Position numbers and translations under genes: made by a program. 64,000 nt of DNA from Verrucomicrobiota bacterium (GTDB lineage: Bacteria > Verrucomicrobiota > Verrucomicrobiia > Chthoniobacterales > Terrimicrobiaceae). The notes under the pieces were generated by a model. It was not told the origin of the DNA and searched no databases. It saw only the letters and a list, made by a program, of their open reading frames with translations. Below are positions 25,236-30,308 of this stretch, piece after piece (the first letter of the stretch is position 1; every line of letters starts with the position of its first letter). The stretch covers positions 1 to 64,000 of the forward strand of contig JAGWWS010000001.1 of NCBI GenBank assembly GCA_018970255.1. The letters are read 5' to 3'.

Positions 25236-25613
25236 TTACCAAACGATCGCCGTTCCGTATTTGGCGATCTCGGGGTCGCAAGTGACCAAGGGGATTCCCT
25301 CGGCTTTGGATTGGGCGACCAGAAGGCGGTCGAAAGGATCGCGGTGGTGGAGCGGGAGCTTCCGGTATTCGGCCAAATGCCGGTTTTCGATTCCCAGCGT
25401 TTCGTATCCCATCTCCGCCAACTCCTCGAAAAAACCCTCGGGCAACTCCAGCTTGCCCAGACCCGCCTTGATCGAAAGCTCCCAGAGCGTCCCGGCACTC
25501 ACCAAGACACGGTTTTCTTCCGAGCCGATCGCCTCGCGCGCGCCGTCCCCGAGCTTTTCCGGCGTGTCCACGGCCCACAAGAGGGAGCAAGTGTCCACCA
25601 ACACCGTCGCCAT
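25236..25613 (-). CDS. PIN-domain toxin, VapC-like
   Basis: The 125-residue protein is a PIN-fold ribonuclease: an N-terminal VLVDTCSLLW with the first acidic residue, WELSIKAGLGKLELP, and HRDPFDRLLVAQ with the central acidic residues, then a C-terminal LVTCDPEIAKYG. VapC toxins cleave tRNA or rRNA when freed from antitoxin. The start ATG shares one base with the antitoxin stop (TGATG). It belongs to the subgroup whose antitoxin is Phd/YefM-like. Confidence 0.88.
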   Translation of the reverse strand: MATVLVDTCSLLWAVDTPEKLGDGAREAIGSEENRVLVSAGTLWELSIKAGLGKLELPEGFFEELAEMGYETLGIENRHLAEYRKLPLHHRDPFDRLLVAQSKAEGIPLVTCDPEIAKYGTAIVW

Positions 25614-25852
25614 CAGTCCTCCAAACCCAAGGCGCGAGCCTCTTCCTGGTTCCACGAATCGAAATCGGGGGATTTGCGAACCCGGCCGCGCATCGCCCCC
25701 AAACGGCGCCCGCCGGAACCGGGCACATACCGGACCAGTTGCACCATCGGCTTGCCGGCCTTGCCAATCACGACCGGACTCCCTGTGCGAACCACGGAAT
25801 CCACCAGGGACGACAGGCGCGTTTTGCTTTCAGTAATCGTGAGGGTCTTCAC
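25613..25852 (-). CDS. Phd/YefM-like antitoxin
   Basis: The product, about 79 residues, begins VKTLTITESKTRLSSLVDSV, the Phd/YefM pattern of a short beta strand and helix that binds DNA as a dimer, followed by SPVVIGKAGKPMVQLVRY. The C-terminal half, including FDSWNQEEARALG, would wrap the toxin. I chose GTG 25852 because it fits the family N-terminus; a longer reading frame to 25897 is possible. It is the upstream gene of the toxin and should autorepress the pair. Confidence 0.82.
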   Translation of the reverse strand: MKTLTITESKTRLSSLVDSVVRTGSPVVIGKAGKPMVQLVRYVPGSGGRRLGAMRGRVRKSPDFDSWNQEEARALGLED

Positions 25853-25935
25853 GCACGAAATCAAACCAGATCCGATCTGGTTTGTCAAGGAGATCAAATG
25901 CCCGTGGCGCGGCAGCGCCTTCGAGACCCCTTGGA

Positions 25936-26204: not shown

Positions 26205-26621
26205 TTAAACAAGTTTCAGTTTCACCCCGGCGGAGCGGCAAGCTGCGGCAAGTTGCTTGTCAAGTGTTGCCAAGGGAATTCCGAGGCGCAGCGCGAGTTC
26301 AAGGTAGGCCGCATCATAGGTGGAGAGCCTGTGCTGTTGCGCCAAATCCAGGGTTTTGTCCCATGCGCGGACGGAAGTTTCGGGGTCGACCTGAATTTCC
26401 AAATCCCCCAACCGCGAAACAAAGGCTTCAATGCCGGCTTGGTCGATTCTTCCTTTTCGCATCGCCCCCAACAAAACATTACCCACCTCCAGGTGCCAGA
26501 TGGCGGGCACCCAGGCTTGGTCGCCGGCGGCAAGCCCATCGAGCAAACGGTCCGTGCCTTTGGTGGCTTCGTCTGCAAAAACCCAAGGCAGGGCGGCCGA
26601 GCAATCGAGGACGAAATTCAC
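26205..26621 (-). CDS. PIN-domain toxin, VapC-like (second system)
   Basis: The 138-residue protein has MNFVLDCSAALPWVFADE, a VGNVLLGAMRKGRI segment and LSTYDAAYLELALRLGIPLATLD, the three acidic blocks of VapC nucleases. The YDAAYLELA block is typical of the FitB/VapC type. It overlaps the antitoxin gene by four bases. It is only distantly similar to the toxin at 25236-25613, so the two systems are not recent duplicates. Confidence 0.88.
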   Translation of the reverse strand: MNFVLDCSAALPWVFADEATKGTDRLLDGLAAGDQAWVPAIWHLEVGNVLLGAMRKGRIDQAGIEAFVSRLGDLEIQVDPETSVRAWDKTLDLAQQHRLSTYDAAYLELALRLGIPLATLDKQLAAACRSAGVKLKLV

Positions 26622-26869
26622 GCCCGCCCCTCATCGCGCAATTCGCGGATGCCGGCCCCCTTGAGTTTGTATTTCGCCCTCAACGCGCGCATTTCGGCCG
26701 CCGCATCCTTGCGCCGCGAGGACCTGTCGTCACGGTAGGCGACCAACCGGGCCACCGGCTGGTCATGCTTGGTGATGATGAAGGAGTCCCCGCGCCCGAC
26801 CCGTTCGAGCAACTTGCCAAGCTTGGTCTTCGCCTCGAACGCACCAACCAAAACAGGCTGCATCTTCAT
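26618..26869 (-). CDS. Phd/YefM-family antitoxin (second system)
   Basis: The 83-residue protein reads VGAFEAKTKLGKLLERVGRGDSFIITKHDQP in two blocks, the Phd/YefM DNA-binding and dimer region with the usual RLVAY end, followed by a charged toxin-binding tail. Two start codons are close (ATG 26869 and 26863); I used the first. It precedes and overlaps its toxin gene. A 155-base gap to the next gene upstream should hold the operator, but no clear palindrome was picked out. Confidence 0.82.
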   Translation of the reverse strand: MKMQPVLVGAFEAKTKLGKLLERVGRGDSFIITKHDQPVARLVAYRDDRSSRRKDAAAEMRALRAKYKLKGAGIRELRDEGRA

Positions 26870-27024
26870 GTCGTTTAGACTAGTTGTTCCTACCAGTCTG
26901 TCAACGCCCAAGGGGATTCGCAGCGGAATTCAGGGGGCGGAGGCAGGCTCTGCATAATGCCGTTTTTTTGTTGAAACGCCCGCCCCGGATCAAAGGCTCC
27001 AGCAATCGGCATAAGGCTCCCCCA

Positions 27025-27460: not shown

Positions 27461-28432
27461 ATGGATGTCCTGAATTCACTAATGCTCAGCCTTCTCACCC
27501 CGATGGTCCTCGCCTTCCTGCTTGGCGTCGCCGCCAGCCTCGTGAAGAGCGACCTGAAGATCCCGCCGGAAATCTACACGGCGATGACGATCTACCTGCT
27601 CTTCGCCATCGGCCTCAAGGGCGGCGCGAAGCTCGACGGGGTGACATTCGCCGAATTCTGGCGCCCGCTCGCGGCGGCGCTTTTCCTCAGCCTGGCCATA
27701 CCGGTGTGGTGCTACGCCATCATGCGGAAGTTCGGGAAACTCGACGGGGTGAACTCGGCGGCGCTCGCCGCGCACTACGGATCGGTCTCGGCCGTGACCT
27801 TCGGCGAGGCAGTCGCCTTCCTGCAATTCGCGAAGGTTCCCTACGAGCCCTATGTGGCGGCGCTGCTCGCCGTGATGGAAGTCCCGGCGATTATCCTGGC
27901 GATTTTCCTCGTCGGGAAAGCCACCATCGCCTCGGGCGGCGGGGACATGAAGAAGGTCCTCCGGGAACTCCTCACCAGCAAATCGATTGTGCTGCTCATG
28001 GGCGGCATGGCGATCGGGCTCCTCGCCGGCAAGGAGGGAACCGCACAGGTGGCGCCGTTGTTCGAAGACCCCTTCCGCGGCGTGCTCACGCTCTTCCTCC
28101 TGGAAATCGGCCTCGTCACCGGCCGCAGGCTGGGCGACCTCAAACAAGCGGGCTGGAGGCTCATCGTTTTCGGAATCGCGATGCCCTTCGTGCACGGCAT
28201 CCTTGGCGTCCTGCTGGGCTACTGGAGCGGGATGGGCGTTGGCGGCTCGACCGTCCTCGGCACCCTCGCCGCGAGCGCCAGCTACATCGCCGCGCCGGCC
28301 GCGGTGCGCGTGGCATTGCCCGGCGCCAGCCCGGCAATCTACCTGACCTCGTCGCTCGCCGTGACCTTCCCGTTCAATGTCGTCATCGGGATCCCGCTCT
28401 ACTTCTCCTTCGCGCGCTGGCTCATCCCGTGA
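27461..28432 (+). CDS. SbtA-type sodium-dependent bicarbonate transporter family protein
   Basis: The 323-residue membrane protein has about ten helices in two inverted halves, with family-typical stretches PMVLAFLLGVAASLVKSDL, YLLFAIGLKGG and the FGEAVAFL region, matching the SbtA/DUF897 family. SbtA of cyanobacteria brings in HCO3- with Na+; bacterial relatives are mostly uncharacterised. It is followed after 51 bases by the iota-carbonic-anhydrase-like gene, which supports inorganic-carbon handling. No PII-like SbtB gene is adjacent, unlike in cyanobacteria. Confidence 0.85.
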   Translation: MDVLNSLMLSLLTPMVLAFLLGVAASLVKSDLKIPPEIYTAMTIYLLFAIGLKGGAKLDGVTFAEFWRPLAAALFLSLAIPVWCYAIMRKFGKLDGVNSAALAAHYGSVSAVTFGEAVAFLQFAKVPYEPYVAALLAVMEVPAIILAIFLVGKATIASGGGDMKKVLRELLTSKSIVLLMGGMAIGLLAGKEGTAQVAPLFEDPFRGVLTLFLLEIGLVTGRRLGDLKQAGWRLIVFGIAMPFVHGILGVLLGYWSGMGVGGSTVLGTLAASASYIAAPAAVRVALPGASPAIYLTSSLAVTFPFNVVIGIPLYFSFARWLIP

Positions 28433-29914: not shown

Positions 29915-30208
29915 TCAGGATTTTTTTGCTTTTTCGTCGCCGGTCCCCCCATTTGCGCCGTCAGCAAGGATGGACTCGATTGTTCGCGAGGCGTAGGCCT
30001 CGTCGGGACCGTAGGTCTCGATATCGATGGTCGTCCCCATGGCCGCGCATAGGGCAAGGATACTGAGAATGTTTTTTGCATCTGCGATCCGCCCGCCGCA
30101 GCGGAGCAGGACGACAGCCTTCATTTGCCGCATGGCGCAGGCAATGGTTTTTGCGAGGAGGAGGTTCACGCCAGACTGGCGGGATACAACAGAACGAGTT
30201 GTTTTCAT
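29915..30208 (-). CDS. HPr-fold protein lacking both phosphorylation sites
   Basis: The 97-residue protein aligns end to end with the PTS phosphocarrier HPr, including the GGRIADAKNILSILAL helix region and a GTTIDIETYGPDE strand. The catalytic His15 is Asn15 (GVNLLL instead of GLHARP), Arg17 and Pro18 are both Leu, and the regulatory Ser46 is Asn46. It therefore cannot act as a PTS phosphocarrier or be phosphorylated at Ser46; a regulatory or binding role is possible. A Lys-rich tail follows the fold. It converges on the zinc-ribbon gene and is divergent from the TauE/SafE gene. Confidence 0.75.
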   Translation of the reverse strand: MKTTRSVVSRQSGVNLLLAKTIACAMRQMKAVVLLRCGGRIADAKNILSILALCAAMGTTIDIETYGPDEAYASRTIESILADGANGGTGDEKAKKS

Positions 30209-30308
30209 TCGAGAAGTTTGACAGCCAACCCTGCATAAAGGTTCATTTTTAAAAAGCTGATTTTATTGCGTTCATTTGGCTGACAGCATGGTCAAAAGCC
30301 ATTTTTAA

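Follow-up and report, generated by a model that had tools for sequence, protein, structure and literature searches.

HPr is a two-site phospho-switch, and, to our knowledge, the only well-studied degenerate form of it is Crh, in which one site has been lost. What becomes of an HPr when both sites are gone is the question raised by a gene within a 64,000-nucleotide stretch of a Verrucomicrobiota genome (contig JAGWWS010000001.1, positions 1 to 64,000; hereafter the window). The gene is an intact minus-strand ORF of 97 codons (29915..30208) encoding the 97-aa protein MKTTRSVVSRQSGVNLLLAKTIACAMRQMKAVVLLRCGGRIADAKNILSILALCAAMGTTIDIETYGPDEAYASRTIESILADGANGGTGDEKAKKS, which a sequence-only reading had described as an HPr paralogue that kept the fold while both known phosphorylation sites were replaced. 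Like canonical HPr (TIGR01003/PF00381), the protein has a gap-free core and is recognized by Pfam: PTS-HPr (PF00381) matched residues 6-82 with 44.7 bits (E = 1.4e-11), above the gathering cut-off of 23 bits. Unlike canonical HPr, it lacks His15 and Ser46 and scored below the NCBIfam cut-off for HPr (TIGR01003; 36.8 vs. 47.9 bits), and its score against the NPr equivalog (25.6) was far below the cut-off of 119. The alignment of the subfamily profile with the HPr of PDB 1rzr (columns 1-84) was gap-free over the HPr/Crh core, and numbering was identical. By this numbering, the protein carries Asn15 (codon 30164-30166, minus strand), Leu17, Leu18 and Asn46 (codon 30071-30073, minus strand), i.e., neither His15 nor the Arg17 that accompanies it in HPr phosphocarriers.

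An AlphaFold2 model built on the protein's own subfamily alignment (mean pLDDT 76, pTM 0.61) showed an open-faced beta sandwich with three helices (residues 16-27, 47-54, and 70-86), with strand 1 weak and of low confidence (pLDDT 58). All of the best PDB matches found by Foldseek were HPr or Crh (TM ~0.6-0.77 by query length); the Crh entries 1mo1, 1zvv, and 2ak7 were among the matches. Two of the checks that had been proposed, structure prediction and profile alignment, agreed with assignment to HPr, and Pfam and the fold together rule out membership of a different family. A pseudogene or wrong start was also ruled out, as relatives share the start and no frame is broken. The Lys-rich tail (residues 90-97), which had also been singled out as a feature, is not conserved among relatives, and we set it aside.

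The assembly containing the window (2.56 Mb, 93% complete) also encodes a canonical HPr directly after hprK, with the motifs NRNGLHARPAA and NGKSIMG (core GLHARP/GKSIMG), as well as one EI, one PF00359 EIIA, and one HprK. Since all of these components are present, the phospho-chain is intact and the window protein is an extra, coexisting with a complete canonical regulatory PTS; for the same reason, site loss does not reflect decay of the PTS, and we rule out that His15 was lost because the PTS was lost. Mannose-type EIIA was absent from all 24 genomes checked, ruling it out as a partner. Glycogen phosphorylase is a known HPr target and is present here, but it also occurs in genomes without the paralogue gene and is not singled out as a partner.

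The window protein belongs to a patchy, phylum-wide HPr subfamily of Verrucomicrobiota, here termed PW-HPr; no study of this phylum's HPr paralogues turned up in the literature searched. The 34 members collected comprise nine from the 213 genomes of the order plus others obtained through profile searches at class and phylum level and from a named genome collection, all from drafts, mostly MAGs, in which absence calls depend on the first look of the search. Named carriers include Cephaloticoccus, Akkermansiaceae, a Pedosphaerales-labelled bin, and Chthoniobacteraceae, and four members come from a family outside the class. Carrier genomes that were checked also have canonical HPr, EI, and HprK. 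On the tree, the subfamily separates from canonical HPr at 100/100 and the window protein falls within it. Members are marked by V-P-W before the site and by helix 2 of the form AD-x-R-S-I-L-S-V-x-A-L-C-A-x-M-G-T, for which we use the signature AD-x-[RK]-[SN]-IL-[SG]-[VI]-x-ALCA. A broader version found in most members, AD-x-[RK]-[SN]-I-[LFMVI]-[SG]-[VIL]-x-x-LCA, is matched by the window protein as ADAKNILSILALCA, and the subfamily's Trp10 is Arg10 in this protein. Although it shares the helix-2 signature, length, accessory status, and patchy presence of PW-HPr, it differs from most members, which keep Trp10, His15, Arg17, Pro18, and Ser46. Indeed, His15 is kept in 27/34, and these His-keeping members also have Trp10 (27/27), Arg17 (25/27), Pro18 (22/27), and Ser46 (23/27). 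Sites within the family thus range from intact (GLHLRP with Ser46) through partly eroded (GLHLRQ, GLHLLP, GLHMRR) to fully replaced (GVNLLL with Asn46), a natural series that lets one ask what HPr does without phosphate, in a phylum whose PTS is hardly studied. A further group of HPr paralogues in the order (L007, L015, L024, L025) has the helix 2 SAISIMDIMTADIRSGAEI, keeps His15, and is a different subfamily.

Within PW-HPr, the window protein groups with four proteins from a single further genus (g19) of the order, to which it is 42-49% identical. Support for this clade was 100/100, and 99/98 with trait columns 9-18 and 46 left out, the clade being only five sequences and the family tree resting on fewer than 90 columns. 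Trp10, His15, Arg17, Pro18, and Ser46 are gone in all five, which instead have Val or Ile at 14, Asn15 (four) or Thr15 (one), hydrophobic residues at 17 and 18, Asn46 (5/5), and Ile-Leu at 47/48 (5/5). As four further species in this clade show comparable changes, site loss in the window protein is not chance. The sequence-only reading had named orthologues with His at the site as a refutation, and this was half borne out: the wider subfamily mostly retains the histidine, but the five-member clade has none. His15 is also missing from L090 (G289, GLVLLP) and L091 (G518, RRFPMRA), probably lost separately in each, both adjoining a His-keeping member in the tree. Under parsimony, the tree needs His15 to be lost three times and position 46 to change four times. 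An AU test of one loss for all seven His-less proteins returned p = 0.038 with all columns and p = 0.083 without the trait columns, making separate losses likely rather than proven. The window genome may have acquired its copy by transfer from the f12 genus, but the alternative, in which the four f12 proteins form one clade, was not rejected (p = 0.26).

The main null explanation is that the subfamily is dispensable, its active site has drifted repeatedly, and the present copy is a duplicate en route to loss that does nothing. Consistent with this are the three loss events on the tree, the missing Arg17 or Pro18 in several other members, and the very patchy distribution (9/213 genomes of the order). 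The gene was not found in any of the 15 other genomes of its genus, so its function is dispensable, which tells against the adaptor reading set out below. However, the frames have stayed open in five species despite the divergence noted above, and pairwise dN was 0.13-0.50 against a dS of 0.84 to saturated; considering that dS is near saturation, the strength of selection is rough, but dN well below dS suggests that the gene is not an obvious pseudogene. The distribution of changes also argues against drift. The former phosphocarrier loop (codons 14-18; 30155..30169, minus strand) reads V-N-L-L-L in place of L-H-[AL]-R-P and has turned hydrophobic likewise in 5/5 members. Identity between the clade and His-keeping members is 0.07 in this loop, 0.22 at 9-13, and 0.59 at 44-59. 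Helix 2 (codons 44-59; 30032..30079, minus strand), which bears the subfamily signature AKNILSILALCAAMGT, is the best-conserved part within the clade, with an identity of 0.78 vs. 0.56 among His-keeping members, although the clade is also younger. Decay alone would not give up the phosphocarrier site and keep helix 2, as has happened here, and we regard a functionless duplicate as quite unlikely.

To our minds there is about an even chance that the protein is a degenerate-site HPr paralogue that has left phosphoryl transfer and serves as a permanently dephospho-like adaptor for a regulatory partner. In one clade of the window's order, an accessory PW-HPr with His15 and usually Ser46 would have been stripped of Ser46 and of its entire His15 site, the protein surviving as a binding module held permanently in the "dephospho-HPr" state. 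Helix 2, with its invariant Ile47-Leu48, and the new hydrophobic 14-18 loop may dock on the regulatory partner regardless of the state of the PTS or HprK, in which case protein abundance, not phosphorylation, would determine the signal. Somewhat more tentatively, and at slightly less than an even chance, we propose that in this clade of doubly dead HPr the loop became a hydrophobic docking surface and the protein a phosphorylation-independent regulator in bacteria whose PTS is purely regulatory. The E. coli partners MtlR, Rsd, EI, and LsrK accommodate Phe48 of dephospho-HPr, together with Leu47, in a hydrophobic pocket, and acidic residues next to His15 reject phosphorylated HPr in those complexes (PMC6763467). 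The absence of His15 and Ser46, the Ile47-Leu48 pair, and the hydrophobic loop fit a module locked in the dephospho state. Constitutive partner binding, as the sequence-only reading had suggested, would have a direct precedent in the unphosphorylatable E. coli HPr(H15A), whose effect on the mtl operon is that of constitutively dephosphorylated HPr (PMC5320558).

Like Crh of Bacillus and relatives, the window protein is an HPr paralogue that has lost His15 and kept the fold beside a normal HPr, being the second HPr of a genome whose canonical copy adjoins hprK. Crh binds CcpA in its Ser-P form. In Crh, His15 is replaced by Gln, whereas Ser46 is kept, is phosphorylated by HprK, and supports a role in carbon catabolite repression (PMC9631020). 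Since the window protein also lacks Ser46, Arg17, and Pro18, the Ser46 route of Crh is closed to it, and the claim that it goes beyond Crh holds; what is new is an HPr variant one step further, with both sites lost in a clade. It also resembles NPr of the nitrogen PTS as an accessory HPr in a purely regulatory PTS, but NPr takes up phosphate on its His.

Among the rivals, the main one to offer a mechanism takes the protein for an HprK pseudosubstrate: helix 2 would dock in the active site of HprK, presenting Asn46 where Ser46 would be, and compete with canonical HPr. HprK is present in all tested genomes that have the gene, conservation centres on helix 2, where Asn46 is invariant in the clade, and the HprK/P-bound form of B. 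subtilis HPr (1kkl) is matched by the model. Yet the subfamily helix 2 (ADxRSILSVxALCA) differs from helix 2 of the HPr that is linked to HprK in those genomes (VNGKSIMGLMMLAA), and HprK is universal in the tested genomes while the gene is rare; we therefore consider this reading unlikely. A shift of phosphorylation to another residue, e.g., Ser49 or the Thr15 of one member, seems improbable to us. Ser49 is invariant in the clade (5/5) and present in 20/27 His-keeping members, but it replaces Gly49 and occurs also in members that retain both Ser46 and His15, and Ser49 is not the target of any HPr kinase known to us.

If the protein is indeed a dephospho-like adaptor, its partner is not pointed to by the surrounding genes. 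The window locus has no operon partner for the paralogue gene, which is flanked by a divergent TauE/SafE gene and by convergent DUF6671, SnoaL/CaMKII_AD-like, and Sbt_1 genes; the DUF6671 gene itself is present in only 1/15 other genomes of the genus. No conserved neighbour emerged when the ORFs of 31 neighbourhoods were compared with each other: closely related genome pairs aside, common neighbours were sporadic, and by a rough count they were no more than chance. Short-chain-dehydrogenase-like genes adjoin several subfamily loci, and MurJ-like genes (named by eye) lie near L039 and L083/L085. An Sbt_1 bicarbonate-transporter-family gene lies within ~3 kb of the His-less HPr gene both in the window (27461-28432, plus strand) and at L035:2846-3850 (G048), probably by chance. 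No promoter or terminator consensus was found around the paralogue gene. GC content falls to 0.52 at 30000-30299, which spans the gene's 5' part and the gap to the divergent gene, vs. ~0.56-0.68 around it. Two PIN-toxin/antitoxin-like pairs, of VapBC type by eye, lie close together on the minus strand of the window at 25236-25897 and 26205-26911.
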